Positions 4,388 to 50,652 of a DNA stretch of 64,000 nt are shown piece by piece (the stretch's first letter is position 1; the number at the start of each line of letters is the position of its first letter). The stretch comes from Styela clava (lineage: Eukaryota; Chordata; Ascidiacea; Stolidobranchia; Styelidae): NCBI RefSeq assembly GCF_964204865.1, contig NC_135252.1, positions 19,179,383-19,243,382 on the forward strand, given 5' to 3'. The notes below the pieces were generated by a model that saw only the letters and a list, made by a program, of their open reading frames with translations, was not told the DNA's origin and searched no databases. A program made the translations under genes and the position numbers.

Positions 4388-4484
4388 TATAAGATAAAGT
4401 TTGTGATTCCTTGCATATTTTTATTGTTGTAGGTAAATAATAGTACCAGTTTGTGGGAAAGATACGTGAAGATTCTTTGCTAAA
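4388..4484 (+). promoter_or_regulatory. Conserved leader upstream of collagen-like gene 1
   Basis: The 95–100 bases before the ATG are strongly conserved with 36687–36771 upstream of the second collagen-like gene, while sequence further upstream is less alike. The segment holds a T-rich run followed by TTGTAG, which resembles a 3' splice acceptor about 50 bases before the ATG. It could be the end of a 5' UTR intron or a trans-splice acceptor. No TATA box is assigned. Confidence 0.35.
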
Positions 4485-9292: not shown

Positions 9293-11398
9293 CTTCAGGT
9301 CTTTCAAGAGCCGTCACAGAAGAAGGCTTTGGCACAATATCTTCCATTTGGGCGGAAAACATAAAGAATACAGGAATATAATGAAAAGTGAAACTTCTAT
9401 ATAATTTAAAAACTCAAATCAGCGTAACCCATTTATTTGAAATAAAACAAGTAATTCCATGTTAGTTATAAATATTTATTTTCACTGTTTTCAATAATTA
9501 ATTCATATATAAAATAAAAAATGACACTATTATGACTTCAGAAACAAATTTGTTCTATTCGAGTATCGCTGTTTTCAATAATTAATTCATATATAAAATG
9601 AAAAAATGACACTATTATGACTTCAGAAACAAGTTTGTTCTATACAAGTATCACTGTTTCCAATAATTAATTTCTATATAAAATTTAAAAAAATGACACT
9701 ATTATGACTTCAAAAACATATTTGTTCTATACAAGAATCAAACAGTATTTTTATTATTAGATTTTTGACTATTTTAATTGTGAAATACCTTCTGGTTTTT
9801 CAAAGTGACGTGTCGGCTTTGGTACAATATCTTCAATTCGAGCTAAAATATGATAAATACAAGAACATTATAAAAATAATGAGACCAAAAACATCGTTTT
9901 CAGTTTTAATTTTATTTTATTCTTCAAAATAATACAAGTAATACCTTTCACTATTCTCAATAACAATTATATATATTTGATCAAAAAATATCAATTTTAT
10001 GACGTCAGAAACACTTTCTCTATTCAAGTATGGAACAATATTTTTATTACTATATTTTTTACTATTGTTGATTAAAATTATATAATACCTTCTGGTCTTT
10101 CGAAGGCTTCTGTCGGCTTTAGAACAATATCTTCCATTTGGTCTAAAAGATAACGTATATTTAATAAATTTATAAATGAGACTTTTACTATTTCAGAACA
10201 GTTTCTTCTGAAGTATAAAAAAGCAATTTTGCTATTTCATTTCTGAGCTACTTTGAAATAAATATATCGAAACCTGGTTTTTCAGCAAACGTCACAGGAG
10301 AAAGCATTAGCGAGTGAATTATAAACGCTGAAAATACAATATTTGAAAATTTTGATTTATCCCTCGCTGTTTTACATATGTCTGTTATAATAGTTACCAA
10401 CATCTTGAATTATGGTTTAAAACGCAAAACGATAATAAAACTCTCCAGTAGTAAAATCAATGATGAATTATATGACTATGTAACATTACGAAGACTTCTT
10501 CTGGGCATTGTATACAGAAACGGTTAGAGCGCCATAGCACATGTGTTAGAGTCTGAACATTTTTATCGCAAACGAAACCATTCCGATGGATAGAAGTAAA
10601 AAATTATCTTACTTGGTTCGGGAAATACATTTTCATTTGCTGCTGGAAAACAGGAAACTATTCTGTAAAAATCAAGCATAAATTTATTTAATTTAAGAAA
10701 ATTTGGAAATATAAATGAACTTTTTATGAAATCCTATCGAAAGAAAAGCTTTAATACTGTATATGTGTGTTAGTATTAGATTTACAAAGGAAGCATATAG
10801 CAGACAATTATCTGTGTATCATATTGTAAAAATGAAATATTTATTAACTTTTTATGCCTCAACAATTGTGAATCATAATGATAAATAAATCCTCGAAAAT
10901 TTGTCTTTTTAGCACATGAGGTTTGTACAGGATTGCTTGAACATTGATTTTTCCGTAATTAAAAGAACGTAGTATGAATCGTGTAAGTAACTGCTACAAA
11001 TCTAACTCTTTGTTTTTTCGTTCTTCTTTTCACTTTTTTATTCTTACGTCAGAGCACGTTAATCTTGAGATAATTATTTTTATAATGGTACAGAATAATG
11101 TTGTTTCCAAACTCGGTTATCAACTTATATTTAAATTGTAGATATCATGGTTCGTATTCAATGAAGGTCTACGGAACTATCTTGAACGTTTCCCGTTGCC
11201 TACAGGAGAGTCCCATGTTTAAATTTACATTCAAATCATTATAGTAAAAGCAGTTTGATACATCTTGTTGGACCTTAGACAAAACAGCATCATCTGAATA
11301 GAACAGTGAAATAATCCATATTCATATTATCAAACACAAAAATCAGATGTTGCAGCTTACCCAATCACGCCGAATAGCAGTAGAACCCTTTGAATCAT
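9293..11398 (-). CDS. Secreted mini-exon repeat protein, copy B (3' end not found)
   Basis: Exons 5' to 3' (minus strand): 11398–11361, ATG and MIQRVLLLFGVIG; 10662–10613, IVSCFPAANENVFPEP; 10327–10274, FIIHSLMLSPVTFAEKP; 10142–10089, QMEDIVLKPTEAFERPE; 9842–9789, RIEDIVPKPTRHFEKPE; 9352–9293, QMEDIVPKPSSVTALERPE. Exons 1 and 2 together make a plausible signal peptide ending near VSCFPA. From exon 3 on, every exon is 54 or 60 bp and is flanked by phase-1 introns, so exons can be added or lost without frame change. The 60-bp exon has CG instead of AG at its acceptor and may be dead or skipped. I could not find a terminal exon. There is no recognised family; the likely fate is secretion. The protein has no dibasic cleavage sites and is not cysteine-rich. 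Confidence 0.65.
9485..9731. repeat. Three tandem copies of an ~84-bp unit
   Basis: Three adjacent near-identical units starting at the CACTGTTTTCAATAATTAAT motif and running to CTATACAAG, in the intron between mini-exons 9352–9293 and 9842–9789. The unit is the intron sequence that also lies between other mini-exons, so local tandem duplication has happened inside the array. Confidence 0.75.
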
Positions 11399-18155: not shown

Positions 18156-21100
18156 CTAAATATATAAGAAATTGTTCACATTTACATCTCCATGTTCTTC
18201 AAGCCATGTTATAGTTGCATCACATTCTTTCACGATGAGTCGCTTTTGTTCCTCGTCGAGTGTACTTGGCGAAGCTTTTGCACGTTGCGTTATTTTGTGA
18301 ATGTAGGCTTCTAAATTGTTTCTTGCTTTATTAAGCTGTCTCGCTTTCTCGTCTTCTTGATTAAAAACCATGTTTTCCTGAATCTAGAATGCATGTGTTG
18401 GTAATATTCAACATCAGGAATTTCATATAGCTCTATTTACAGCGAACCTTGGCTTTACGATACTTGACCTTTTAGTTTATATAGTTTAAAAATATTTATC
18501 TTCAAATTGTTTTGAAGGGCCCATAAGATTTGCTTTGGTACCTCACTCATTCGATCAGAATAAAACCATATAACGACAAAAAAAAAACTTCTTCTAAATT
18601 TTGTTGAATAAAAAGCGCGAATAGAGGTTATCACGTGTCACTCAAATTAATCAGGGTTGGAACCCGGCGTGCAATCACAGAGTCGTTCGTACGTTATAGT
18701 TTTGCTTTGACTTTCGAAATGCTTAGTCATAGTCAAGATTTTGTTTAAAATATATAAAATCTGGCTCTTACCATTGCACGTATTTCCGAAGTCAACATGT
18801 CTTCATTCTAAAATAATAAAAAAATTATGTTTATGCAATTGCGTTACGTAGATTAGCTGATTGCATTCGTCTCATTTCAAAACATTTTAGACTACCTCAG
18901 CTGGGCTACAGTTAATTGTACTTTATAGCAAATAAAATAGGATTCTTAGCTCTCACATAATCAATTTATATTATTGTAGTAGACAGTTTATAATAATGGT
19001 ATTTGTGTCCTCAATTAAAGAATTGTAAATTTCTGAGTAAGCACATGTATGCGTATCTTCATATCACATTTTTACTTTTTAAAATTAACTACTTTTTAGC
19101 TCCGACATAATGCCTTATTATTATTGTAGCACACAAACTATATAGGACCTATGTCTTTCTACTTCAATTAAAAAAAACTGAATGTTATGGGCTCTACAAC
19201 ACCTGATTTTACGTTTATGTATATATAAACGTACCTCTGCAGCGGAATGCGCATTACTTTTAGCCTTGTTAAAGACTTGTTTAGCATAATAAGCAGCACC
19301 ACATGCAATCGCCTCATCCGGATTTAGGGTTCTGTTTAACGCTTTTCCATCAAAAATTTTTTGAAGAAATTCTCTGATTTTGGGGATTCGTGTTGAACCT
19401 CCGACGAGTACGATGTCGTCAATCTGTTAAAGTAACAATCGCATCTGAGTCTCGTTGCAATTTTTACATGGCCAACCTTAACCAATGCGGGAAGATATAT
19501 CACGGTAGAGTTAGCGACAAACACATAATTGACACATATGCCAGATACCTCAGATCGCATTTAAAAAAGATACATATTGTATTGAACAAGGGCTCAGCCT
19601 GAAATTTTCAAGGGCAGGGCGGTTCTGAAATTTCTAATTGACAATTTATATCGGAACAGTTAGCGGTTCCGGGTTTTTCCGAGTGAGTTTTCAAAAGTCT
19701 TGAGAATCTAAATGGCGTTTTAAGCTACGAAAACGAAATTGAATAAAATTAATATATTTCACCTGGTTGGCGCCAATCTTCGCTTTTGTTAAAACATTGC
19801 GAAGAACTTGTTCGATACTTTCAAAACTATCTTTATTTATTTCTTCAAATTCGGATCTTCTAAATGTTCTGTTGTAAGGTTCATTCCCATCAATGCAATC
19901 GGCTTGGAGTCTGCAAAATATTAGGAGTTAGAGTAGTGTCAGGTAAGATTGAACAACTCAGCAGTTGCTTCACGTATTTGCTAAATATTTTAAACGCGAC
20001 CGATTTATTAATTTCTAGATTACTCATACCCGTCTTGGTTTATAACTACTTATCAAAATGTAGTATCTATTCTGCCGGCGAAACATATTTTCATGGAGTT
20101 GGAATTTGTTTGCCAAAGGTTTAACACTTTATATGCCAAGATCAGTTTTTTCAATTTTACCGTTCCGTGCCAAGGTGAAAACGAGAGAGTTCTCTCCTAT
20201 TCATTCCCTCTCGTATTTAGTTTTTGATTCATCGGGAAAGGGGCGAACCCAGCGGTGTCATCAGTTATCGTTCATTCCGACACTTCAGTCGTAGGTGAAA
20301 GAACTCACCTACACACGCGTATCTTGTCGGAATTGCTCTTTCATGCTATTATAACATAAGTTGATGATAACTTGTCTTGATCTCTCATTGCGATAAAGAT
20401 TCAATTCGAACATTTTATTCAGCAATCAGAATCATTTTATTAAACGAAAATATCAAATTTGGACAAAGAAAACAAAATCGTTTACTAGCATAAAAATATA
20501 TCCTTCATTCGCTATATATTCCAATAACATTAATAATGGCCAATTATTGTCACTCACAAGGATAACATATTGCAAAATAAACAAAGTAGTCACATTGCAT
20601 ATTCATACAACTGTAACACATATGTAACTCTATGACCTCGTCACCATTACAATACGTCGAAAGTATTGAAATCGGCCTCTTATCTTGCCATAGTAGTGCG
20701 AGTAATTGTCCTTTTCGTAGTGAGATGATTTCCCCTTTCTTTAGTTTTGTTTTTATTTCTACTGGAAGTCCCTTCCGGTTTACAATGACTGTTCCCGTTA
20801 TCGATGTTTTCCTTCGCTGCAATTCCTCGGCTAATGCGACAGAGTTATAGAGTCTAAATTAAAAATGATTATTATTAAAAATTGGTTGTGATAAAACAGT
20901 TTATGCAATTGATTGATATATCCGACAATGATTCGTTATCTAAAATAGAACGCAGTATGGCGCCGAGACGTAAATTATCTAATTTGTCTTATCAATACCG
21001 AATAATCAACATACCTATCAACAAATACGTGATATCCTCTATCCAGATGACTTTCCATTAGTTGCAAAACTAAATTCGAAGTTTTTGTGACGCCGGGTGG

Positions 21101-24100
21101 AAGTTGTTCCAAGTTTGGATTACCATAATCTATTTTTACATTGAAAATGTATCCAGTTGTTGAATCACTCGCACTACTATGGCAAGATAAGAGGCCGATT
21201 TCAATACTTTCGACGTATTGTAATGGTGACGAGGTCATAGAGATACATATGTGTTACAGTTGTATGAATATGCAATGTGACTACTTTGTTTATTTTGCAA
21301 TATGTTGTCCTTGTGAGTGACAATAATTGGCCATTATTAATGTTATTGGAATATATAGCGAATGAAGGATATATTTTTATGCTAGTAAACGATTTTGTTT
21401 TCTTTGTTCAAATTTGATATTTTCGTAAAATAAAATGATTCTGATTGCTGAATAAAATGTTCGAATTGAATCTTTATCGCAATGAGAGATCAAGACAAGT
21501 TATCTCCAACTTATGTTATAATAGCATGAGAGAGCAATTCCGACAAGATACGCATGTGTAGGTGAGTTCTTTCACCTACGACTGATGTGTCGGATAATAC
21601 CGAAACATGCGTAATACATTTCAGGTGCGTTTGTATCTTAGTATTGCTCCTGAGTTTTCGTCGGGCGCTTCCAGATTTGGTGGGTTCAGTCAGTAAACGA
21701 TGAAATTCGAAGTCTTTACTTGCCTCGGCAAACATTTCATTCAATCTGGTATTTATAGCGAGCAAATACTTATTTGTGTGGATATTTGAACTAATATTGG
21801 CGTGCAAATGAAGTATTTCCAAATGCAATTTCAATATTCATTATACGCATCCGGTGTCTCTAAGTTGACATAATAAAAAGGTTTAAAGCTTCATCGAAAT
21901 TCGTCAGTTGATCTGTCAAGAACACGATTTTCCGAAATTGTCATCTCACGCAATTTGCTACGCAAGTCGTCTCGACTGCACGTAGTCCCGTCTTCGTGGC
22001 GCCAGACACGTGATCGCTATTGCGTAGCTACGTAATCAGTACGCCATGGCTGCTTATTGAACTTGTTCATCCGACACAAAGTCGTAGGATTGCATATTTT
22101 GCTATAATTATGGTTATACAATAGCTACGGAAGTAATTCAATATGAGCTGAAAGCATACGAGGGGCTCTGTGTTGTTGGTAATATATTTCCCACTAAATT
22201 ACTATATCTCGGATCATATCTCACTGACAAGTAGAAAAATATATATTTCTGAATATTTTTGAATAATATCAATTTCTCACTTTATTATTTCAAAATGTAA
22301 CATTTCACCTCTCAGGACGATAAAATTTGCTTTCGTTGCAGATGTCCGTCAATCCGTTACCCAAAAATGATAAAAAATTAAAAAAACGTTCAAAAATACC
22401 AACATTTTGAATCATTTCATCGTCCTGCCAATAAGACGACGATCATGCATATAAAAATATTCGAATTATTTCCCGGTTTAGTAATGTTTTTCTACATCTT
22501 CGTAACATGATTGATAATATTATCATCTCTCCTCACACCTTTCAATCATTTCACCGTAAAAAGTTGAAACCGTGTGTTGGCGTCAGTCGGTCTCGTACAA
22601 ATTTTTGATGATAATTTGCGGCTAATATGTACCTCGGCCATGCTAAATAAGTTGATAATTTACTTCATGGCAGACCCTCCTTCCATCTTGGTATTTCTTG
22701 AATGACGCGATTGGCTGACGACGTCATTCTTTCTCCCCAACTTGACAACAAGAGAGAGAGAGAGAAGAAAAAAAGACGGCAAATACCTGAACTCGACCTT
22801 CTTCTATCTATTAAACTTTTTCCTTTTCGAATGACGTATATATACGTCATTTTGCATTGATGGCACGGAACGGTTGGCGCCAAATGACGTATATATACGT
22901 CCTTGGCATCGAAAGTGTTAAAGCAATGTTAATATGTTTGACTCCGGTTGAAATTTTTTTAGAATTTTTTATCCCCATCTGATTACAATCTCAAATATTA
23001 CAAAAGCAAAATGAGGAATTATGGTATATGCAAAACTTCCCCCAAAACGACTCCAGAATAAATTTTTATTCTGTGACGTCATCGTAGTTATGTGTGTACT
23101 GATTTCTATAACTTGTACCCTTGTATGTTCCTAAAAGTTGATAAAGTTTTGTATCTGGCACAACTCGTTTATATCTTTCGCAATATTTTAAGTAATGAAT
23201 GCTGTTGTAAGTATAATAAAAGCATAAATTATAATAGAGTATATCTTTAATTTTATTTATTTTAAATACCTGGTTTGCTTTGAAGCGGACAATGTTTTCT
23301 TCGCTTTTTCACAGGCCACTCTCAGTCGGAACATTCCCTTCTTATTACCAGAACATACGTTTAACTCATTCATGACATCAATGTCAAAATCGTCTCCTGA
23401 AAATCAATAAAACAAAGTGAAATACAAGTTTAAAACTTGTAACTTGAGACACATAGTTGTCATAACATCTATACAGAAGCCAAACTTCAAGTCTCAAATA
23501 AAGGGTTCAATAATATATGCACCTCACCCAGGGTGCAATACATTGAGAACTCAATGACAAGCCGGAAAGATTACGGCCATTCCAAATAACAGTATAGCTT
23601 CATATTTATTGTGGTCAGTGTTCCCTCTAAGTCTAAGAAAATGTTACACTGTTCAAATGTTTAATGAGCAAGAATATTCTGAGACTGAGCAAAGTACACA
23701 TTCAACTCGTAAACATGGAATGAGCATTATAGCTAGGCGTTAGAAAATATGACGAGCCACGCTTTAAAATGTTGCAAGTGAGCGAGAATGAGATGTTACT
23801 GCGCAATTGGCCTGGTGGTAGTGCGTAATGGGGCAGTTGCGCACATTGAGGAGGTCGTGAGAGATCAGAAGCTGCTTGCAGGGGGATCAATACAGAGCGA
23901 GTTAGTACCGTATATATAAAAGGAAAATTGCACGAAAGTAGAAACGTAACTGAATGATAAGCCTAATTGCCTGGAATTTAGTTAATTATCGGAATTTTCT
24001 CACATCAACACTGAATATTTTAGAAGCAAAAAATATAGTTCCAGATATTTTGACTTTTTGTTCAATTTATTTAGGATTACCTATTAAGTAATAAAAATAG

Positions 24101-27041
24101 ATGGCACATTTTTGTACTTGCTTTGTTTTAAGCTTATATGACAATTGAATTTTATTTTTTCATATATATCCACAAAATAATATTCATTGTTTGTTAATCA
24201 ATCGTTCTTAGTTAATTAATTTGAAGCATTTCTGTTTAAAGGACTTCACACCACAATTGAGAATTTGCTATTGTTTTTTGAATCGCATTTCATCAAACAT
24301 CAAAATCTATCTTCTTGCCTCCAAAATTAGGATTTCCGTTTGCGGTCAAAATCTGAACGACATTGCTTCCTTCAATAACGTAAATGGCCGCATCAAATTT
24401 CCCTCCTCCAATGTCGAATATCAGAACGTTATGTCTGTCAGACATCTGGTAAATGAAAATACTAAACTTTACAATTTTGCATATTGCGAGAAAGATATGG
24501 ACAAATTCATTTTTTTATAAATGTTAAAAATATAAAACGATTTAATGGCACTAAGGTGCTATGACTGCAATTGATGCCGCTGAAGTTGATAAAATATACG
24601 GATAATATATGTCACTCCCATATGAGCACAGATTTTCTGACATTCCGCTAGAAACGAGACTCGTTACAGATCATCCAATGTTGAGATTTAAGAAGGAGTT
24701 TTGCATTACGATTCTGTGAGCATACTGATTAGATTGGTTCAGGGGGCGTAGAGTTTTGTTTTACAACGGCCACATTCAGAAAATCATTAGGTCGCATTAG
24801 GAAATTGACCATGACGTCCCATTTATAATTCCCATCTGTGCACAAAATGCTTTGACGGGTCGCCGGCAGTTTGCCCCACTCGAAATTAGTATAAATTTTC
24901 GTACATTACGATTCTCTGCAAATGCCTTTGCTGCAGCCATAGGTTCGTCTATCAATCTGACATCCTTGAATCCCGCTATGAATCCTGCGTCCCGGATTGC
25001 ATTGCGTTGTTGCTCATAATAACACACAGGAACTGATATGCAGGCGTTTTCGACATTTTTGTTAAGATATTCTTCAGCTATCTGTTTCATTTGCTCGAGT
25101 AGCATCGCTGCGATTTGTTCAGGTCGGAGACGATATTTCTTATTTCTGAAGGTTATCTGTAACGATTCAGTTGAAACCAATAGTGAATAAAATTTGAAAT
25201 AGAATATTGTAGTGGTCCAGTGGTTCCCAATCTTTTCTGGCTTGTGGCCCCCACTTTTTAGTCCCCTGTTTCCCATTACAGTAGTGTTTATAGTGTTATT
25301 TATATTGATAGCTTCTGATTCTCATTATGTTCAAACATTCATGCTCAACAAAGTGAAAAACCTTTGGAAATATCCTTGTTAAGCAATTAACTGGGAAGAA
25401 CGGGGAGTTTTCTTGTCAAGAGCAAAGCAAAACCAGTTTTGCTCCCGGCATTATGGCCCTTGCTGGGAACCGCTGTTATAGTCTATGTATTTTGTTTCTT
25501 TACATTAGGCCTGCCGCCTAACTTGGACTAGAGTTTGCGCAATTGTGTTTTGTTCTTGACCAAATTCAAACGAAGGTCATAAATATGACTGGCTTAACAT
25601 TAGATGGCCAAATTTTTTTTGATTTCAAAATGTAGCATATGTGGAGGTATTGCTTGTTAGTGGAATTTATATCCAAAACGTTTATCAAAGTTCCATCAAT
25701 TTTTTGAATTTCCTATCTTATTTATTACCCTTGTAGTGTTTGCTCAAATTGATACAAGTCTCGCTTTAGAAAATATCAGTAATAAATTTATTAAAGATTA
25801 TACGCTCGCATCTACAGCGTGTTAAAAAAAGTTACACAAAATTGAGGTATCATTTTTCGTCATGGCAACGTTAAAAACGTAGCGTCAGTCGTGAAATGTC
25901 TAAATGGCATTTCATCGTAATTTAACACTATTAATTAAAAGGAGTCAGCCGTTCAATGTTTCAAGTAGCATTTCATCTTAACTTCTGTTAATTTTGCGTT
26001 ACTTTTTAACACCCTGTATCGATTAACAAACTTTTTCTACCTCAAATTGAAGTCATGGTTTTGATCGGATTAATATTCTTGAAAAGAAAAAAGTTACCGG
26101 TATTTGAAGATGATAGTCCTTCACGTCGACATCAAAGCCCCAATATTGCTTATATTTTTGTACAGCTTCGTCATCGTTCGTTCGACCTATGAGACGTTTA
26201 ATTTCTGGGATGGGATAAAAATAGATTAAATTATTTTAAAGTGTAACCTTCGAACGTAGTCCACAAGTCCTATTCCCAACGTGTTTTCTATCTCTACAGT
26301 TCCTTGGTTGGAGCGAAAGGTGCGAGTAAGCGTCGTAAAAAAAGTGTCAACAAGGTAACCAAAATACAGATTTCATGACCAAGAAAATCAAAACTTACGA
26401 TATACAGTATTCTTTAGATTAACTGGAGCTTGGTTTTGCGCTGAATCTCCGAACAACCTTTCATCTTCAGTAAAGGCGACATATGAAGGTGTCAGTCGAC
26501 TGTTGAGTTCATTCGATATAACTTCTACCTGAGTAGTGTTAAATTGGTAAATCGGTAATATAGTAGAAAATAATAGAATTTTAATATGGAAAATTTAAGA
26601 AAAATAAAAAGAATAACGTCACGACTAAAAGCAAGAAGATCGGAATATTTACATTAAAAGAGGTCTGGGAATATAATAGAATATCCGAATTTGACGAACA
26701 AGTAAAAAGAACTCCTGAAAATTAGTTGTGGCAGGGGATGATTACTAGACAAGAATGTCAGGTTGAGAGTAGACAATCTTTCGAAGAGAAACAGAGGCAG
26801 CGATGGGACAAGTAGAAAAGAAGTAAAAGATAAGATGAGAAAAAGGAGTAAAAACAATGAGTTGAAAGGCTGTAAGAAATTAGAAAAAGTGCAAAAATAA
26901 TTTCGATAAATAGGAGACAAGATCTATTTCTAGAAGAAAAATAACTAGAAATATAGAATGGACTGAATAACTTACTTTGCCATCAATACAAGTAGCAACG
27001 CAGCAAAAAGACGTTCCAAAATCAATTCCAATACTGGCCAT
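18156..27041 (-). CDS. Hsp70-like ATPase without β-sandwich domain, copy 1
   Basis: Ten exons on the minus strand: 27041–26976, 26528–26399, 26204–26098, 25156–24905, 24445–24319, 23396–23270, 19910–19763, 19423–19235, 18807–18772 and 18383–18156 (stop TAG); 469 residues. NBD motifs: phosphate loop 1 [24 protein letters not shown] (catalytic Lys kept), IDEPMAAAK (family NEPTAAA), phosphate loop 2 [11 protein letters not shown] (family GGGTFD), adenosine loop [17 protein letters not shown] and [11 protein letters not shown]. After the NBD only about 30 residues precede the lid helices ([20 protein letters not shown], then WLEEHGD). The usual β-sandwich of about 120 residues is absent from the exons and from the introns around it. 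Exon 5 uses a GC donor. The 3' end of exon 4 (weak donor GTACGA) is the least certain junction. It diverges from its paralogue at 43928. A cytosolic ATPase or co-chaperone role is inferred; peptide binding is doubtful. Confidence 0.85.
20290..21595. repeat. Internal foldback inside the piggyBac-type element
   Basis: About 20,271–20,703 and 21,170–21,600 are near-perfect reverse complements (arms about 425 bp) around about 470 bp of unique sequence. The left arm holds the 3' part of the transposase frame, and the right arm repeats it antisense. The break lies at about 20,703/21,170. Confidence 0.85.
20632..21168 (-). pseudogene. piggyBac transposase fragment (DDE_Tnp_1_7), spliced
   Basis: Minus strand, two segments joined by a 161-bp GT–AG intron (20854–21014). 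Segment 1, 21168–21015, reads [13 protein letters not shown], then [20 protein letters not shown]. Segment 2, from 20853 down, reads [20 protein letters not shown], then [20 protein letters not shown] and [17 protein letters not shown]. These match the piggyBac pattern 'GHhvyvDNFYTS..L...L', 'GTvr.NRkglP', 'W.DkR.v..LST'. The N-terminal half with earlier catalytic Asp residues is missing, replaced by the foldback arm; the last part runs to about 20,550 without family features. It is not functional as it stands. Confidence 0.8.
22833..22901. repeat. Two identical 16-bp palindromes near the piggyBac right end
   Basis: GACGTATATATACGTC occurs at 22833–22848 and 22886–22901, 53 bp apart, inside the right end of the piggyBac-type element. 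Paired sub-terminal palindromes could be transposase binding sites; this is inferred from position only. Confidence 0.8.
25218..25475. mobile_element. hAT-type MITE in Hsp70-like intron
   Basis: Starts CAGTGGTTCCCAATC and ends GCTGGGAACCGCTG, inverted. It lies in the intron between exons 3 and 4 of copy 1. The flanking 8-mers are similar but not identical. The matching intron of copy 2 carries a different hAT-like fragment. Confidence 0.6.
25813..26018. mobile_element. Mariner-type MITE in Hsp70-like intron
   Basis: About 206 bp with inverted ends: TACAGCGTGTTAAAAA at the left, and TACAGGGTGTTAAAAAG read inward from the right. Interior matches (GTAATTTAACAC and GTGAAATG-type stretches) suggest internal repeats. 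TACAGGGTG ends are typical of Tc1/mariner-related MITEs. Confidence 0.65.
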
Positions 27042-32620: not shown

Positions 32621-33361
32621 TGTGTTTGCATGTATTACTAATATCCTTTACTCACAAGTATCACTGTAATACATAATTATGCACACTTTACAATATATTC
32701 GGAATAGCCGAGTGCGAGCTGCGCGGATCGCTAGTTAATGATTTATTAACCCACAAATGAAAACAGGCTTTTTATGCTTAGTAGGTAGGAAGGAAGAAGA
32801 AGGTTTAAAATATGCTAACGGAGTAATGTATCAACAAACGTTTGGAAGGAAGATCTGATTTAGCTAATTGGGCTGAACTCAGAATCTCGTATTGAAAATC
32901 GTGAAAATAGAAGTAAACGAGTGTAAACAGTGTTGTTTATATTATATAATATATAAATTATATATCAATGAAAATGTTTTGAGATATTGGCGGCTAACAT
33001 ATTACTTATTTCTTTCAAATACCAAGATTCTATTTCAATTGCCTATATGCGAATCATTCGTGGTTATTTGTGGAAAATATAAAAAATGGACTTGATGCAA
33101 CTCTTTGGTGAATTAGTGTTGTTTACAGAAAATATTTGAATGTCTTGAATAGCTTTCAAAACAATACAAAATTTTCTGGCAGATTTTTAAAATAAACAAT
33201 ATACACTTTGACACAATATCTTCAAATTGGGCCATAATATGATGAATATAAAATATATTCAAAAACGAAACATTTCTAACTTAAGAAACAATCTGCTCTG
33301 ACGTCTAAATCAGTATTTTTCACATTACATTTATACTATTTTGGTTAAAATTAAGCAATAC

Positions 33362-34798
33362 CTCTTGATTTTTCAATAACAGCTGTCTTCTTTATCACAA
33401 TATCCTTAATTTGAGCTAAAAATAATAAATGAAAGAATATAACAAAAAATGGAACTTTTATAAAATTCAAAATCCATGAACATGATTTCAGTTATAGTTT
33501 TGTTTTTATCTTTTGAATAAGTCGAGTAATACTATGCTTGTTTTAAAATATTTTCACTGTCTTCAATAACCAATACATATACTAAATCAAACAATGACAC
33601 TTTCATGACTTCTGAAATAATATACTCTATAAAAGTATAAAACAGTATTTTCAATATTAGATTTTTGACTATTCTATTTATAATTGAGTAATACCTTCTG
33701 GTTTTTCAAGAGACGTCATAGAAGAAGGCTTGGGCACAATATCTTCTATTTGGGCTAAAAACATTAAAATACGAAAATATAATGAATAATGAAGATTTTA
33801 AAAAATTCAACAACTAAAATTACCGCCTTCAGTTATATATTTATTTTCTTATTAAAATAAGACGAGCAATTTCATTGTTTGTTTTAAGTATTTTCACTGT
33901 TTCCAACCAGCTAAAGTAATACCTTCTGGTACTTCAAAGGCCTCTGTCGGCTTTGGCACAATATCTTCTATTTGGTCTAAAACAATAACAAATATATAAA
34001 TAAATTTATAAAATGACACTTATACTATTTTAAAACAATTTCCTTTGAAGCGTAAAAAAGCAATTTCGCAATATCATTTCTGAGCAACCTAAAATCCTTT
34101 TCACTTAAAAATATAACAAAACCTGGTTTTTCAGCAAATGTCACGGGAGAGAGCATTAGCGAATGAATTATGAATGCTGAAAATACAATATTGTTGAATT
34201 TTGGTTTATCTCTTGCTATTTGACATATGTCTGTTATAACTATAGATCAACAATATCTTTAATTAAAGATTTAAAACGTAACAAATTATAAACCTTTAGT
34301 AGTGTAAGCTATGACAAATTATATGAGTGTAGAAATTAACGAAGACTCTTGGAGGTCAAAAATAGTTAGAGCACCATAGCAAGAGTCTTAGAGTGTGAAC
34401 ATTTTTTGTAACAAACTAAAAAATTGTCTTACTTGGTTCGGGAAATATATTTTCATATTCTACTGGAAGACAGGAAACTATTCTGAAAAATCAAACATAA
34501 CTTTGATTAAGTCAATAAAAGCTATAAATAAACTGATGAAATCTTATCAGGGAAAATTTTGACACTGTACATGTGCGTTAGCATTACGTTTATTCGTCTG
34601 CGTTTCCTATTGTCTAAAGACGAGTCACTTTGTGTAAATTTACATGCTATATAACGAAAGAATGTAGTTTGGCCTTAGACAAAACAGCATCCTCATACTA
34701 GTAAAGTATACAAATCCATAATAATATTACTAAGCACAAAAATCAAATGCTGTAGCTTACCCAATCACAACGAAAAGCAGCAGAGCCCTTTGAACCAT
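33362..34798 (-). CDS. Secreted mini-exon repeat protein, copy C (best preserved)
   Basis: Exons 5' to 3' (minus strand): 34798–34761, ATG and MVQRALLLFVVIG; 34482–34433, IVSCLPVEYENIFPEP; 34176–34123, FIIHSLMLSPVTFAEKP; 33976–33923, QIEDIVPKPTEAFEVPE; 33754–33695, QIEDIVPKPSSMTSLEKPE; 33415–33362, QIKDIVIKKTAVIEKSR. All six have AG acceptors and GT donors; intron phases are 2, then 1 throughout. A seventh, decayed repeat exon lies at about 33,204–33,231 (QFEDIVSK, no acceptor AG). A signal peptide covers exons 1–2. The terminal exon with the stop was not found, so the 3' end is open. It sits back to back with collagen-like gene 2 (1,973 bp between start codons, divergent). No family recognised; a secreted repeat protein is all the sequence supports. 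Confidence 0.75.
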
Positions 34799-36686: not shown

Positions 36687-36771
36687 CTTGTGATTCCTTT
36701 GCATATTTTTGTAGTTGTAGGCAAACTAATAGTACCAATTTGTGAGAAAGATACTTGAAGTCTTTGCTAAA
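36687..36771 (+). promoter_or_regulatory. Conserved leader upstream of collagen-like gene 2
   Basis: Closely matches 4388–4484. It contains TTGTAG after a T-rich run, a possible 5' UTR splice or trans-splice acceptor. An in-frame GTG at 36742 precedes the ATG at 36772, but the signal peptide and the match with copy 1 support the ATG. Confidence 0.35.
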
Positions 36772-39226
36772 ATGTCTAAGTTGATAAGTATTGCGTTCAT
36801 TATTTTAATCCTAAACTACTGTGTTGCTGGCAACGATGATTATTGCTGTCGTCCTAACTACAAGCAAGGAAGGCCTGGTAAAAGAGGAATTCTGGGGCCA
36901 GAAGGTCCAACGGGACCAGCGGGTAAAAATGGCTCGCCAGGTTCCGTGGGGCCAGCAGGACCGCCTGGAAGTAGTGGAAGTCCGGGTCCAAAAGGGGACA
37001 GAGGCAGTTCAGGTTCTCCGGGAAAGTCAGTCGATGTTAACCAGATAATCAAAATGGTTGATGCAAAATTAGCTTCACTGAGAAGTAAGTTTTCTAAGAT
37101 TATTTAATTCAATGTTGCTCATAACAATATGTATAATTTTAAAATTGAAAATGAAAATGCATTTTTTTTGTATATATCTGTACATGCTATAAAATGGTAT
37201 AGCGTAAAATGAATGGATGAATAGGTTTTATTAGACGAGAACTAAAATTTTATACATCGACCTATATCAGGTATTCAATTGCTATCTCGCATTAAATACA
37301 TAATGAGTATGTATGTGTATCTAGGTTAGCTTACCCCATCCGAACCAACTCTGAAAATAAAATTGGCTATATTAAATAGTGGTTCCAAAAATATATCTCT
37401 GTCACCGACAAATGCACAATGAATCCAATGCATTTAATTTTCACTAGTTGAGGTCTGTCGACAAACTTATAATTTAGCATTATTTGATAATAAATTTATA
37501 CTTATTCAAAAATTTCAAAGAGACGCAATATATTGTTTTTTATTAGTTCCGAGAGTACCACTGATTTTTTGTTTTTTCAGATGAGAATTCTGCACTCAAA
37601 AAACGAATCGAAAAACTTGAAAGTAAGTATTATATTTATTATTACGATTTCAAATTTTACTGGCATATCAATGATGCAACTTCAATTTTAAAGCAGAATT
37701 ATTGGGCTATTTCAATGTTATTTTAACATATATGACTTACCCGACCTGTTTAGGCGTATGTTGCATTTAAAAAACCTCTGCAAATTAAATTGTAAATACC
37801 GGGAATATGTTTATATATTCACAATTCATAATGCGATAAAATATCGAATTTTATATTTTGAATTAAAATGAAATTATTAAAATAGAAAATTAACTTTATA
37901 AAATAAAAATTACTTAAAAATCAAAAAATCAAAAATAACAATCGAAAATGAATCCGCGATAATCAGGTTTGCGCAAAATAGAATAACATCAGGTACTGTT
38001 CGATTACATAAAAAATGTGTATATGGTATAAACATTCTGAACAACTCGCAACTGATATACATTTAATCCTTATATTTCAAATATCCTATTATTTCTTATT
38101 GTTTCCTATTGTTATAGTTTGAAGATCCCAAATTTGGATTTTGATTGAATTTATCCCGTCTTGCCGAGACCATATCAACCAATCACTGTTTCTTCTTTCT
38201 GTGTGGCAATTATCATCACCGAACAAAAACCAATTGGTTATTTCCAATACGAAATGCTCTCATAATAGAAATATTTCGATAGCTCCTCTTCCTGCCTCCC
38301 GACGTATATAAATATAATATATAACTATGACTTATGTAGAATAACTAATAACTCAACAGATCATTTCGAATCTCCAGGAAGTTGCCATCAGTGACTTAAA
38401 ATTTCAGAATAATATATATATTAAATAACTAGTAGTTCTTTAAGCACAATTTGAATCAATTAGAGTTAGACGAATTTAAAAAAAAAAATGGACAGTAATT
38501 GATAAATGACTGACTATTTGTATCATAATTGAAGTTTTTTTTTGTGTCGTAATGGTTTAGCAGTCTTAGTAAAATTTGCTTTGATTTGATTAGATAAATA
38601 CACAAACACGTTTCTTTATGGCAATTCAACTAGGTTTTTTTTCGATAGAATTAAATGCCCTACTTTGTGTTTACGAGCTAAATTTTTTCCACAGACAATT
38701 GCAAATCTCTCCTGAAATTAAACTAGAATTGCATTTAGCTAGAACATTGAGTCATATTATAATATATATTGTTTTGCAATAAGCATATTGCAACAGAATA
38801 TTGACATTACAGGTTTTATATAATGATAGCGATAATACCTAAAATCCAGAATCCCAAAATCCCAAGTCCTTTGAAACACATTCTACAGAGAAATACTGTA
38901 CAAATCGTCCAAGATTATTAAATCTTTTAGGTACAATTAAAAACAATCAGAAGTTCAAGAGTTAAAAATTCTTTCCACTTTAGTTGGATAAACTAACAAA
39001 TGTATGGGTTCTGTTTATTTTGAGTCACCAAATGTTCTTATATTTTTCAGAATGCCGGTGCCTCACGACTCCTATAATCAAACCATTTCCGTCAAAGCGT
39101 CCGGTTCCAATAACACGTCCAATCCCGATAACTCCAAGAAGACCAATTCCGACGAAGTTTCCTTTTCCAAATTTCCCGAGGCCAATGCCAAATTTCCCGA
39201 TCGGTATAAGAAACCCATTCCGATAG
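36772..39226 (+). CDS. Small secreted collagen-like protein, copy 2
   Basis: Exons 36772–37084, 37581–37622 and 39051–39226 (stop TAG); 176 residues. Exons 1 and 2 have exactly the same lengths as in copy 1, and all splice sites are canonical (GTAAGT donors). Order: signal peptide (LISIAFIILILNYCVAG), Cys-pair segment (DDYCCRPNYKQ), 18 Gly-X-Y triplets with more GPP/GPA/SPG triplets than copy 1, helical neck (DVNQIIKMVDAKLASLR, then ENSALKKRIEKLE), CRC motif, and a basic tail of Pro-containing repeats (RPVPITRPIPITPRRPIPTK) ending NPFR. The tail is 5 residues longer than in copy 1. The more regular Gly-Pro content and strong donors suggest this is the better-preserved copy. Role inferred: secreted trimer whose Pro/Arg tail may bind partners. 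Confidence 0.88.
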
Positions 39227-43927: not shown

Positions 43928-46900
43928 ATGACCAGTATTGGAATTGATTTTGGAACGTCTTTCTGCTGCGTTGCTGCTTGTATTGATGGCAAAGTAAGTT
44001 ATTTAGTTCATTCTAGTTTTCTATTTATTATTTTTCTAGATCTTCTCTATTCTTTCTCTAAATTATTTTTGCACACTTTTTTTACGACTATTCAATTTAT
44101 TGTTTTTACTTTTTTCTCTGATCTCACTTATTACTCTTTTTGTCTTGTCCCGTCGCTTCCCCCGTTCCTTTTTAACTAGTTTCTCTCAAAATTACCTTCT
44201 TATCTAGAAGTAATCTCTTGTCACAACTAATGTTTTGAAGTTCTTCCTGTAGATTCATCAAATTTTCTTGGATATCCAATTATATTTCCAGACCCTTGTA
44301 ATGTTGGTATTCCTATCTTCTAGCTTTTAGTTGTTTCGTTATCTTTTCTATTTTTTTTTTTCAATTTTCCATATTGCACCTTCTACTGTTTATTACTTTA
44401 TCATCAGCATATCAATTTATTACCTCTTAGGTTGAAGTTATATCCGATAAACTCGACAATCGACTGACACCTTCATATGTCGCTTTTACCGAAGACGAGA
44501 GATTGTTCGGAGATGCAGCGCAAAACCAAGCTCCAGTTAATCTAAAGAATACTGTATATCGTAAGCTTTTATTTCTTCCGGTTGGGCAATCTAAATCATG
44601 ATTACTTTTTTGCATGCCTATAATTCAGTTCTCGGTAAATGTTTACTTAAACAAATGAGAAATAATGTCGTTGTATCGAAATGCACAACGAGTATCATTA
44701 TCGTTGGTTGTAGCTGAGATGATAAAAATACGTTTTTGCATTGCCTTTCCCTTCGTGCAATAGATAGATGATATATTTCCTTAATCGACTTTTTATACAT
44801 TTCCCCATTTCGAAACAAAGTTTTGTACTTCTACGTAGAGATCTCGACTTTACTTTAGAAAAATCGGAAACTGTTTTGGTTATTTTGGCATTGCCCACCC
44901 AACACAGTAGGCAAAGTAGAGGGCAAGATTGAGAGAACATATACAATTGATATCAGTAATTTTGTTTCCCCATTAACAATTATAATAGATAAATAATCGT
45001 TATTTGTATGGTCTTCTTTGAAAGAATTGATCCTTACTGGGCTTCCATTAAGACAGCATTCAAAAATTTAATTTAAATAATTATTTTGTCTTATTCTATT
45101 TCAGAAATTAAACGACTCATAGGTCGGACAGTGGATGACAAAGCTGTACAAAAATATCAGCAATATTGGGGTTTCGACATTGACGTGAGCGACAATCATC
45201 TTGGAATACCGGTAACTTTCAATTTAAAAAAAAAAAAAAGTTAATAGGGTGGTTTTAATTCTATCAGAGCAGTTGATATACTTAGTTCAAATCTCGATCC
45301 CATCGTTTGTAGTAGTTTTCGTTATATAAGTTTACTGAAAGCACGGTTTCCACCACTAAACTTGAAGGGGGAAAGCTACTGCAAATCACCACTGCTGTAT
45401 TGGAATGAACTTCTCGACAAGAATGCCAATAAATACAGGTTTTTCCAAATTTGCAATAATGGAGTGCTAGCAGTTCGAAGTCCATTTTCCAATCGATGGG
45501 TGGATTCCATGACGCCCACTTTAGAACAAAAATTGTTTGCACGAACATGTTGAGCCAAAAAGTGCCATTTTTGATTTTTTTCAAATGTGGAAAGTTATCT
45601 TGGTTTATTTGTTTTCATTAAAATTGCTAACATTGGCTCATCTCCGCGGGCCGCACAATTTTTCCTCCTGGGTCGCATTTGGCCCTTGGACCGCAGTTTG
45701 TACATCCCTTCATAAATCTCTAAGGTCAAAGATCAAACTGACTTCAATTGATTTGTTACAGATAACCTACCGGGAGAAGAAATACAAACTCCGACCTGAA
45801 CAAATCGCAGCAATGCTGCTCGAGCAAATGAAACATATCGCCGAGGAGTATCTCAACGAGAATGTCGATAACGCCTTCATATCTGTTCCTGCGTGTTTTA
45901 TTGATCAACAACGTAATGCAATTCAAGACGCAGGTTTTATAGCGGGATTCAAGAATGTCAGATTGATTGACGAACCTACAGCTGCAGCAAGGGCATTTGC
46001 AGAGAATCGTAATGTACGAAAATATATACTAATTCCGGGTGGGGCAAACTTTGGCTCGCAGATAGGAATAATGACGTCACAGTTAATTTCCCAATGTGAC
46101 TCTTCGCAAAAAAAAATCTGAATGGGGGAAAAACTCGGCGCATCCCTGGGCTCCAGTATTGTCACGACCTCGAAAAGCAAAACTCGCTCCAAAATCTCAA
46201 CATTTAGGGATCTTGGGTATTTTATGTTCACGTAAAGGTCGTAATATTGGGAAGCACAGATGAATTTAACAATTCAATATAGTCATAGATTCACATAGCA
46301 AAACTCCTAACGTCTCAAAATTTGATTGGTCTAAACTAAAGTTTACAATATTTTTCGCATGACAGACGGATTTACCTGTAAATGAATCAAAATCTGTAAA
46401 TGAATAAAAATTTTGAGAAATAGTTTTACCCCCTCCATAATATAGGTTCGCTCTGCAGAAGTTCGAAGATTTTGATATTTTTGAAAATATTGGCTGCTTT
46501 ACCTCGTTTCGAAAGAAATGTCAGAAAACCTGATCTCATCTGGAAGTGACCTATATATCCGTATAACAGCCACTTCATCGCCATCAATTGCTTTCATAGC
46601 ACCCCAGTGCCATTAATCGTTTTATTTTGTTACTTTTATGAATAAAATATTTGATCATATCTTTCTTGCAATTTTTAAAAGTTTTATTTGTATTTTCCTT
46701 TACCAGATATCTGACAGACGTAACGTTCTAATATTCGACATCGGAGGAGGGAAGTTTGATGTGGCCATTTACGTTATTGAAGGAAGCAATGTTATTGAAG
46801 CTTTGGCCGCACATGGAAATCCCAGTTTTGGAGGCAAGAACATAATTTTCCATATTTGATGAAATGTGATTCAAAAATCAAATAGCAAATTTCCGATTGT

Positions 46901-49900
46901 TGTGGACTCAATCAAACAGAGAAGCCTCTAAATTAATTGATCAAAAACGATAGATTTACAAACAATTAATATTATCTTGAGGGTATATAGGGATAAATAA
47001 AACTAAAATTTGTCATATAAGCATGAAGCAAGGCGAGTTCAAAAATGGGTCATCCATTTTTATCATTTAATAGGTAATCCTAGATTAAAAAAAAGATTAA
47101 TATTTCACAAAATATCTGAAACTCTATCTTTAGCTTCATTTTTACTTCATTCAATACTTCTGTGAGTTTTAAAAAAATATATGGTATCGATGAATTTCCT
47201 TTGCAATTTTTAAATTTTTCAAGACTTCATGGACACCCTTTTATACACCCTGGGTGAGGTGGGGTGCATATTTTATTTGACCTCTCACTTCAGACTTGAA
47301 GTCGTTTAATCCGTATATCGATGATATGAGAATCATGTATCTCAATTTACAAATTTTAAGCTTGTATTTTACATTATTTTTTTGATTTCTAGGAGACGAT
47401 TTTGACATTAACATGATGAATAACATAAACGTATGTTCTGGTAATAAGAAGGGAATGTTCCGACTGAGAGTGGCCTGTGAAAAAGCAAAGAAAAAATTTT
47501 CGGCTTCGAAGCAAGCCAGGTATTTAAAATAAATAAAATTAAAGATATATTCCGTTATAATTTATGCTTTTAATATACATACAAGAGCATTCATTACTTA
47601 AAATAGCGCGATAGATACAAACGAGTTGTGCCAGATACAAACAAATTTTAAAATTTTAGTTAAATAAAAAGGTAAACAGTACACATATGACTATGATGAC
47701 GTCATATAATAAAAATGAGACTACATGCAAAACTAAAGCGGTTTCTATCATTCCAAAACACGCCTACACATTAGTGATTGTCTGTCAATATCTATGTTTG
47801 GCACGTTTGTCTTGAAACAGCTTGAAGATAGTTAACATAGCTTTTAACTGGATAAGTGGAATGCTTGATAACGAGTAACACATTGTTAGTTTTCAATTTT
47901 AGCTTCACATTGATGACTTATCCATCATACATCAAATATTCTGCTATACTTATTTCTGTTTTATCTGTGCCTAACATAAGAATTTCCTTTTCCATAAGCA
48001 TTGCCTTTTTTATGCGATAAATCTTGATTTTTTTATAATAATGATTCGTTTTTGGAGTCAATTTCGCATTTACCATAATTTTTGATTTTGTCTTTAAAAT
48101 ATTTGAAATTGTAATCAGGTGGAGATATAGCATTCCAAATATTTATTTAACTGGAGTCAAACAAATTAACATTGTATTTAACATTTGGCAAACAAATTCC
48201 TTCATGCACATCTGTTTCGCCGGCAGAATAGATACTACATTTTGATAAGTTTTGATAAGATAAACCAGGACGATTGAGAGCAATCTAGAAATTGATAAAT
48301 CTGCTGCGTTTAAAACATTTAGCAAATACGCGAAGCAATCTTTCTAATATTGAAGCCTGCTATACAACCATCTAGGAAGGCTAATTTCATATTTTGCAGA
48401 CTCCAAGCTGATTGCATCAATGGAAATGAACCTTACAACACAACGTTGACGAGGTCCGAATTCGAAGAAATAAACAAAGAGAGTTTTAAAAGTATCGAAC
48501 AAGTTCTTCGCAATGTTTTAACAAAAGCGAAGATTGTCGCCAACCAGGTAAAATATATTACTTTTACCTTTAATTTTGTATGGTATTCGAACAAACAAAG
48601 TCGGTGCCAGCATAGCGTAAGATTTACCACGTCAATTTCGCAAATATGTTCCAACCAACATATGTTCCCTGTCCAAATGCGATCTAAGATCTACCCTGAT
48701 TTTAGCAAATGTGTAAATTAAGGTTTTATCGCTAAATTGAATATACAGAAACAAGTGATATACAATAGAGATAGAAATTGCAACGGCAGGCCTCGCGCTA
48801 TAGTACTGACTTGAGGTTAATCCTATGGTAGCACTATGAAATCGAATCAAGTGAATCCCGTACAATTACAAGGAATTTAAATTGATTACCTTATTCAATT
48901 AATGAATAACTAAAATAATTAGGATTGTACAAGCTCAATCAAGCTTGTTTAGTTTAGTTTTATTGCCTCAATTTTATCTATAATATGTAATTCGTGATAT
49001 TATGTACTTAGGTGGAAGATAAACAAATTCAAAGACGAATTTAGTTTGTATTATACCAAATATTAATTTTCAGTTATTATCTACCGTGATATATCTCCCA
49101 GCATTGGTTAAGTTCGGCCATGTAAAAATTGCAACAACAGTCAGATGCGATTGTTACTTTAATAGATTGACGACATTGTACTCGTTGGAGGTTCGACACG
49201 AATCCCCAAAATCAGAGAATTTCTTCAAGAATTTTTTGATGGAAAAGTGTTGAACAGAACAATAAATCCTGACGAGGCGGTGGCATGTGGTGCAGCGTAT
49301 TATGCGGAACAAGTCTTCAACAACGATAGGAGACATGAGCATCCAAATGCAGAGGTTAGTTTATATATACATAAATGTATAATCATACGTTTCCGTGTTG
49401 ATAAGATTGAGTTAATATTTTCAAAAAATAAATTTTAACAATGAGAAATTATTCAATCTTGAATTGAAAATATAAATCTCATTTCTAAAGGCAGGGGTCG
49501 GCAATCTTTTGTCGCTCGCGGGCCAAAATTAGGGTTGCAAGTCATTGGCGGGCCGCACATATTTTTAGAAAGGAAAAAAACCGAACGAATGGTACTTTTT
49601 ATCATGAAAAGCAAGCAGTGATACATTTCTCGAATAGAATATAGATTTATTTTCTCATTGCATCTCATAAAATTCCATTTCATTATTTTCAGCGTCATTG
49701 AACTTTTTGCACTTAGAATCAACTTTTCTGCGTTTTGTTGCCATTTGCCTAATTAAAATTAAATTATATGCTGTTTAAACGAATAATTGTGAAATATATA
49801 ATTGTTAGGTTATAATATATTCAGTCTAAAGAATATATTTGTCAAAACGGATGTTTTGTTACTATAATTTAGTGAAGCGTCGCGGGCCGGATTATAGTTC

Positions 49901-50652
49901 TCCGTAGGTTGCCGACCCCTGCTATAAGGTAACTAAAATGGCATACTTACGGAATCTCATAATACAATTTTTCTTATTTTAGAATGAAAGAAAGTTGACT
50001 CAGGAAATACGTGTAATGGTAAGACCTCAATATACATATATTTGAAACAATGGCTTGACTATGACTGGGCAATTACAAAGTCGAGTCTCAGCTGGTTTTT
50101 TAACGCAATATCAATAATCGAAGCATAAGATACAAACAGCTACACGCTGATGATTCCGGGTTCCAACCCTGGTTAGTTAGAGTGACAAATGAAAACCCTT
50201 TATTTGCGCATGGGTTTTATTTACCAAAAATGAAAACTAGTTCTTTTTTTTTCGTTACATATTTTTATTCGGATCGAATAAGGTAACAGATGAAACCTCA
50301 TAGACCTTCAAAACAATTTGAAGATATATATTATCATAACTTCAAACATTGAAAGGACATGTATCGAAATGTCCTACTGTAAATATAGCCATGATATTCA
50401 TGATATTCCTCATTTTGGCATGCAATTTAGATTAAAAAAAACGCGATTTTCAATCAAGAAGACGAGCAAGCGAGGGAGCTTAATGAAGCAAGGAACAATT
50501 TAGAAGCCTACATTCACAAAATAATGCAACGAGCAAAAGCTTCACCAAGTAAACTCGACGATGAACAAAAGCAACTCATTCTAGAAGAATGTAATTCAAC
50601 TATATCGTGGCTTGAAGAAAATGGCGAGGTGAAAATTAACAATTCTATATAA
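43928..50652 (+). CDS. Hsp70-like ATPase without β-sandwich domain, copy 2
   Basis: Exons 43928–43993, 44431–44560, 45105–45211, 45762–46013, 46707–46833, 47393–47519, 48400–48547, 49166–49354, 49983–50018 and 50431–50652; 467 residues with the stop at 50650–50652. The first nine exons match copy 1 in exact length, as does the tenth up to the shared splice/stop point. NBD motifs: [44 protein letters not shown] (Lys for the usual Thr), [28 protein letters not shown]. Helical lid: [20 protein letters not shown], then WLEENGE. The β-sandwich between NBD and lid is missing; 49355–50430 holds only a hAT MITE, a 12-codon exon and non-coding DNA. Exon 5 uses a GC donor. AATAAA lies 29 bases after the stop. 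GTG right after WLEENGE could instead act as a donor to exons at 51.7–55.2 kb. Exon 4's 3' end is uncertain. Confidence 0.87.
45620..45716. repeat. hAT-like MITE fragment in Hsp70-like intron
   Basis: CGCGGGCCGCAC and GGCCCTTGGACCGCAGTTTG followed by TACATCCCTT resemble the right half of the element at 51241–51597. The left end is not clear. It is in the intron before exon 4 of copy 2. Confidence 0.45.
47155..47260. repeat. Mariner-like MITE fragment
   Basis: Shares ATATATGGTATCGATGAATT and the GGACACCCT end with 5,940–6,050. It lies in the intron between exons 5 and 6 of Hsp70-like copy 2. Confidence 0.4.
49492..49921. mobile_element. hAT-type MITE
   Basis: 430 bp with strong inverted ends: CAGGGGTCGGCAATC at the left, and CAGGGGTCGGCAACC read inward from the right. 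Flanks TCTAAAGG and CTATAAGG look like a decayed 8-bp target duplication. It is in the intron just after the last NBD exon of Hsp70-like copy 2. Confidence 0.8.

Follow-up and report, generated by a model that had tools for sequence, protein, structure and literature searches.

Background

The nucleotide-binding domain (NBD), the linker, the β-sandwich and the helical lid of Hsp70 act together in the allostery of these chaperones, and the usual client cycle is impossible without the peptide groove and the linker. Both Hsp70s that are devoid of the client-binding domain (SBD) and large expansions of the family are already known. In particular, HSPA13 (Stch) is described in passages of PMC9691929 and PMC12692333 as lacking the SBD and, in the former, as located in the ER, whereas a passage of PMC6079275 on bivalves gives 88 Hsp70s for the oyster, 97 for the pearl oyster and 61 for the scallop, mainly the product of tandem duplication; that passage does not mention loss of the β-sandwich. 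Among the titles and abstract openings of the open-access literature, we found no Hsp70 that keeps the NBD and the lid without the sandwich; most subscription papers fall outside this scope, so that novelty is unproven.

Here we describe two genes of this kind, G1 and G2, in a window of 64,000 nucleotides (C3:19179383-19243382; the whole stretch of DNA that was analysed) from a genome of 376.6 Mb in 379 contigs. With a probability that we put at roughly one half, G1 and G2 are members of a paralogue group within a large Hsp70 array that have turned into client-less pseudo-Hsp70s. The proteins share with the canonical cytosolic Hsp70/Hsc70 (HSPA1A, HSPA8) an NBD that aligns over about 370 residues, as well as the lid helices, but differ in the absence of the linker and the β-sandwich, a Lys in place of the catalytic Thr (DnaK T199), a 9-residue gap in subdomain IIB and a shortened C-terminus. 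With HSPA13, which was compared by description, they have in common the Hsp70 NBD without a client-binding domain; HSPA13, however, is an active ATPase of the ER, whereas the window proteins carry a lid and the Lys at T199. The N-terminal ER signal of HSPA13 is missing, given that GIDFGTS starts at residue 4 in both proteins and the three residues before this first NBD motif leave no room for a signal peptide. The bivalve expansions, likewise compared by description rather than by gene, resemble the array as large lineage expansions. A further comparison is with the intact genes of the array itself (e.g., L090, L093 and L100), which lie on the same contig and have the same intron-rich build and the same phase-0 border before the lid exon, but possess two β exons and the phosphate motif GGGTFD.

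Gene models and domain make-up of G1 and G2

As read from the splice sites, G1 (27041-18156, minus strand) and G2 (43928-50652, plus strand) each consist of 10 exons and encode proteins of 469 and 467 amino acids, respectively; all exon joins are in frame, with zero internal stops (Table 1). The exons are of equal length in the two genes except for the last one (228 vs 222 nt), and the intron borders given in the preliminary description are exact. The donors are GT throughout, with the exception of a GC at exon 5 of both genes; this GC-AG intron (window positions 24318 and 46834) is common to the two paralogues, and in L110, a third gene discussed below, the corresponding donor was read as GT. 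Intron 6 of G1 contains a recent inverted-repeat insertion (20276-21594) with two 432-nt arms that are 97% complementary and 455 nt apart.

Table 1. Exons of G1 and G2 and the introns on either side of the 12-codon exon (window coordinates)
Feature	Position	Strand	Basis
G1 exon 1, start	26976..27041	-	gene model
G1 exon 2, NBD	26399..26528	-	gene model, HMM match
G1 exon 3, NBD	26098..26204	-	gene model, HMM match
G1 exon 4, NBD	24905..25156	-	gene model, HMM match
G1 exon 5, phosphate motif GGGKFD, GC donor	24319..24445	-	gene model, residue comparison
G1 exon 6, NBD, shortened IIB	23270..23396	-	gene model, HSPA1A alignment
G1 exon 7, NBD	19763..19910	-	gene model, HSPA1A alignment
G1 exon 8, last NBD exon	19235..19423	-	gene model, HMM match
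G1 intron 8, expected site of linker and β exons	18808..19234	-	no β exon found
G1 exon 9, 12 codons, apparent stub of second β exon	18772..18807	-	gene model, comparison with intact β2
G1 intron 9	18384..18771	-	gene model
G1 exon 10, lid and stop	18156..18383	-	gene model, lid HMM
G2 exon 1, start	43928..43993	+	gene model
G2 exon 2, NBD	44431..44560	+	gene model, HMM match
G2 exon 3, NBD	45105..45211	+	gene model, HMM match
G2 exon 4, NBD	45762..46013	+	gene model, HMM match
G2 exon 5, phosphate motif GGGKFD, GC donor	46707..46833	+	gene model, residue comparison
G2 exon 6, NBD	47393..47519	+	gene model
G2 exon 7, NBD	48400..48547	+	gene model
G2 exon 8, last NBD exon	49166..49354	+	gene model, HMM match
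G2 intron 8, likely insertion at 49491-49922	49355..49982	+	no β exon found
G2 exon 9, 12 codons, apparent stub of second β exon	49983..50018	+	gene model, comparison with intact β2
G2 intron 9	50019..50430	+	gene model
G2 exon 10, lid and stop	50431..50652	+	gene model, lid HMM

Both proteins belong to the Hsp70 superfamily according to Pfam (PF00012; E-values of 4.5e-111 and 5.1e-115), with two stretches passing, the best of which covers positions 2-372 and 2-373 of the 599 profile positions in the two proteins, respectively. The claim that the ATPase domain is joined straight to the helical lid in both genes is borne out by the open spliced models and by the alignment with HSPA1A, which falls into two blocks: residues 2-372 of the query correspond to HSPA1A 5-383, and residues 376-458 to HSPA1A 499-584. 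The match thus jumps from 383 to 499, leaving out about 115 residues that comprise the linker and SBDβ. With a score of 17 bits, the second block marks a lid that is clear though diverged; a lid HMM matches the two lid exons with E-values of 8e-6 and 3.6e-5, and no C-terminal helices are seen past the WLEE stretch in either protein. Pfam, the alignment and the HMMs described below all fail to reveal the linker and β-sandwich of a canonical chaperone in G1 or G2. The domain loss is real and is not an assembly gap.

Elsewhere in the window, Pfam was applied to one strand of each flanking stretch (about 28 kb in all) and yielded a single collagen match. Two copies of a short collagen-like ORF that starts like a secreted protein (4470-4802 and 36733-37104) are 94% identical over 300 nt. 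Repeated exon-like blocks of families D1, D5-D7, D10 and D18 occupy 1109-2206, 9782-10708 and 33355-34528; the first two of these gave no Pfam match on the one strand scanned. The heat-shock element pattern is not enriched in the window, with 35 matches against a mean of 30.1 expected and 23 of 100 shuffles reaching at least 35.

Searches for a hidden β-sandwich exon

The preliminary description had noted that the introns between the NBD and lid exons hold no readable β-sandwich, and profile searches of the introns and of the window agree. Pfam detected no family in any of the six queries that represent three sense frames of both intron pairs. A general HMM was built from 80 full-length Hsp70s, 79 from viral contigs plus Escherichia coli DnaK (1 of the 81 translated proteins was left out as short), and run against the six-frame translation of the window, cut into 2,943 pieces; the best match to its SBDβ part in the whole window has an E-value of 1.8 and lies outside both genes. 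With E <0.1, the same HMM recovers exons 2-5, 8 and 10 in each gene plus exon 6 in G1; it is weak on exon 1 of both (0.41 and 0.48) and, in G2, on exons 6 (1.0) and 7 (1.6), and gives no match to exon 7 of G1 or to either 12-codon exon. Thus, this model misses some true exons, and short diverged ones can escape detection. HMMs derived from 18 β exon pairs of the same genome produced a best E-value of 0.79, with nothing in introns 8 or 9.

It is very improbable, in our estimate, that a highly diverged β-sandwich is present and went unrecognised. A precedent for such an oversight is locus L115, whose diverged β exons (E-values of 1e-5 for β1 and 0.0018 for β2) escaped the one-exon genome searches described below. 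However, the HMMs from the same genome, as noted above, find nothing in introns 8 and 9, and these introns offer little room or open frame: the longest open stretches in introns 8 and 9 are 37 and 60 amino acids in G1, and 52 and 60 amino acids in G2. Intron 8 of G2 is 628 nt long; a 14-nt inverted repeat flanks 432 nt of it, which likely represent an insertion (Table 1), so that about 196 nt lie outside this insertion. Furthermore, the 12-codon exon itself finds its explanation as a relic of the exon that is missing.

Origin of the 12-codon exon and age of the loss

The β exon pair of the intact array genes, located between the last NBD exon and the lid, ends in ..M/gt in phase 0 (the slash marks the exon border); in L094, for example, the second β exon ends with ITNDERRLAEKEIDDM followed by gt. 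The 12-codon exon ends at the same phase-0 border as the second β exon, and the intact codons around AAT GAT align with the new TTTTAG/AATGA acceptor of the stub exons. The 12-codon exon is best interpreted as a remnant of the ancestral second β exon, namely its 3' end, and would encode the beginning of lid helix A. The possibility that exon 9 arose de novo as a linker was considered and dropped after the comparison with intact β2 exons. The deletion would have taken β1, the following intron and most of β2, whereupon a new 3' splice site may have arisen inside the old coding sequence, such that the NBD became spliced in frame to lid helix A. The reading frame survived because the borders are in phase 0.

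The loss was claimed to be older than the duplication that produced G1 and G2, and this holds: the third gene, L110 (C3:19279900-19289800), has the same 36-nt stub exon and no β match, with exons 2-10 open and exon 1 not seen in 1 kb upstream. L110 is 51-54% identical to the two window genes (225 of 438 aligned residues with G1 and 237 of 437 with G2; pS of 0.75 and 0.74, and pN of 0.31 and 0.29, respectively), and the presence of the same stub in so distant a gene implies that the domain loss is old. The original argument for a shared loss rested on the introns and does not stand in that form, since intron 8 is alike in G1 and G2 only over the first 27 nt; the shared stub exon shows the shared loss instead. 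Near L110, a lid-like match lies about 5 kb past its lid (C3:19292160-19292351), and positions 6986-8745 of L111 contain a partial copy, the last three exons only, of an L110-like gene.

The Hsp70 array and its β-less members

Counting the NBD exon at about profile positions 97-183, which yields lower bounds, we identified at least 52 Hsp70 NBD exons, in both orientations, in a 3.6-Mb stretch of C3 (19.2-22.8 Mb); the window sits at the low end of this array. Beyond the array, C17 has three intronless-looking Hsp70s, and further Hsp70s lie on C5, C8 and C9. The first 20 loci retrieved have the best-scoring NBD exons and hence are a sample biased to conserved genes; in 18 of them, two β exons separate the last NBD exon from the lid region, and for the other two, L097 and L103, the 10-kb piece was too short, and a same-strand β2 place lies 10.0 and 10.4 kb away. 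A search of the genome with one β2 exon gave 48 places, 41 of them on C3, and a search with a β1 exon gave 47 (all 48 and all 47 candidates, respectively, were scored). When NBD exons were paired with β2 places downstream on the same strand at a distance of up to 25 kb, 35 of the at least 52 NBD exons obtained a partner and 17 did not, and 4 β2 places remained without an NBD exon; by our reading of the β1 search, none of the 17 has a β1 place within the pairing span.

Sequence was in hand for 11 of these 17 loci (G1, G2, L110 and L112-L119). Nine of them (G1, G2, L110, L112, L113, L114, L116, L117 and L118) have no β1 and at most a stub of β2. L119 shows no β1 match and weakly matches the final portion of β2 (profile 467-517, E 0.15, general HMM), and L115, as mentioned, has both exons in diverged form, so that absence from the β2 genome search does not prove loss. 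The stubs end with ATG/gt in phase 0 and, as splice-site readings rather than transcripts, measure 12 codons in G1, G2 and L110, 26 in L114 and L117, and 36 in L118; that of L112 also has 36 codons if the furthest acceptor is used and may be shorter. Together with the weak match of about 50 codons in L119, these form a series of β2 remnants. L113, L116 and L119 yielded no such stub.

The phosphate motif GGGTFD is altered in 10 of the 11 sequenced loci from the 17, compared to 0 of 21 others (L090-L109 and L111). The variants are GGGKFD (G1, G2 and L119), GAGKFD (L110), GGGKLE (L113), GGGFLD (L114 and L117), GGGFFD (L115), GGGVCE (L118) and GGGTTE (L112, where T199 itself is kept); L116 has GGGTFD unchanged. 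Accordingly, the equivalent of DnaK T199 is Lys in G1, G2 and L110 and Thr in all 21 others. The equivalent of DnaK N170, a J-domain contact, is D, D and K in G1, G2 and L110, respectively, and N in all 21 others. At position 167 of DnaK, where the Arg likewise contacts the J-domain, 14 of the same 21 loci have another residue (G in 11, S in 2 and Q in 1), even in genes with the β-sandwich.

In a phylogenetic tree of the NBD (36 sequences, 282 columns, LG+G4; HSPA13 not included), G1 and G2 group with array genes, and 10 of the 11 sequenced loci from the 17 form one clade with an ultrafast bootstrap of 97. All ten are long branches, so long-branch attraction may account for part of this grouping, and the motif changes should not be counted as independent events. 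L116 (C3:22485000-22490300) falls among the intact genes, and its β loss is probably an independent event; given that it is β-less yet keeps GGGTFD, loss of the β-sandwich and loss of the motif are separable.

Selection on the β-less genes

G1 and G2, with 376 of 467 aligned residues identical, evolve under purifying selection that is relaxed relative to the intact genes yet still constraining. The dN/dS ratio for this pair is 0.303 (bootstrap 0.22-0.41), with values of 0.247 (0.18-0.35) in the NBD, 0.451 (0.23-0.99) in the lid and 1.07 over the 23 codons of the junction; the differences at the three codon positions number 54, 35 and 98. For comparison, six intact array gene pairs have ratios of 0.113-0.255, the β-less pair L114/L117 has 0.327 over 223 codons, and L112/L113 has 0.113 with nearly saturated synonymous sites.

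The higher ratios in the β-less pairs (0.30 and 0.33), along with the lid estimate, whose upper bound approaches 1, the junction value and the truncated copy in L111, are what one would expect if the β-less genes were pseudogenes or nearly so, and the missing domain and motif changes were symptoms of decay. We regard this as distinctly unlikely, because neither the ten exons of G1 and G2 nor the nine of L110 contain a stop or frameshift, the G1/G2 ratio is well below 1 even at its upper bound, and L110 has diverged from both genes to saturation at synonymous sites while pN stayed at about 0.3. The broken frames and neutral evolution of pseudogenes are not observed, although the interval for the lid alone is wide.

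Proposed function

The peptide groove is lost, and hence ordinary client binding is as well, in support of the preliminary description on this point. Judging from residue and domain comparisons, G1 and G2 most likely are client-less, hydrolysis-impaired Hsp70 derivatives that would still hold nucleotide. The equivalent Thr mutants DnaK T199A and BiP T229G keep ATP binding and lose at least 95% of hydrolysis, and mutation of the same Thr in the SBD-less HSPA13 results in stronger interference with protein import, according to passages of PMC9691929. By extension from these mutants, neither of which carries Lys, the NBD of G1 and G2 may still bind ATP and hydrolyse it poorly. The protein would then rest in one nucleotide-bound shape with the lid attached, and might regulate or scaffold other Hsp70s or partners instead of folding clients; this last step is the weakest of the scheme.

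Two roles suggested previously fare less well. A nucleotide switch is now less supported, since T199, needed for hydrolysis, is replaced in G1, G2 and L110, and competition for J-proteins is weakened by the disappearance of the linker and by Asp at N170 in both window genes. For possible competition over nucleotide-exchange factors, likewise suggested, the pertinent observation is the 9-residue alignment gap in subdomain IIB. An NBD that still cycles with Lys at position 199, making the NBD-lid protein an active switch or a co-chaperone competitor, is in our view unlikely. It would fit the retention of D8, K70, E171, D194, D201, G342 and R345 (DnaK numbering) in G1 and G2 and the behaviour of Caenorhabditis elegans Hsc70, which, in passages of PMC3315512, still hydrolyses ATP without the whole SBD and has turnover and cofactor binding affected by its lid. 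Set against this are the Lys shared by all three genes and the missing linker, through which J-domain signals run to T199 in the account given in a passage of PMC13012618.

Returning to hydrolysis-impaired derivatives, a broader proposal, tentative and somewhat doubtful, is that a multigene Hsp70-derived class has formed in one lineage by keeping the ATP-binding domain and the lid, shedding the sandwich exon by exon, as the series of β2 remnants may illustrate, and losing hydrolysis in the process; its members would act as ATP-locked NBD-lid modules in the regulation of the many intact Hsp70s of the array. If true, nature would have uncoupled the switch of Hsp70 from its grip. What the NBD and the lid can accomplish by themselves would be revealed by a natural gene series that retains both parts after loss or erosion of the sandwich, and such a series would parallel the engineered ATPase-dead or SBD-less mutants. 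Since intact and altered members are neighbours on the same contig, the order in which the losses occurred can be studied within a single genome.
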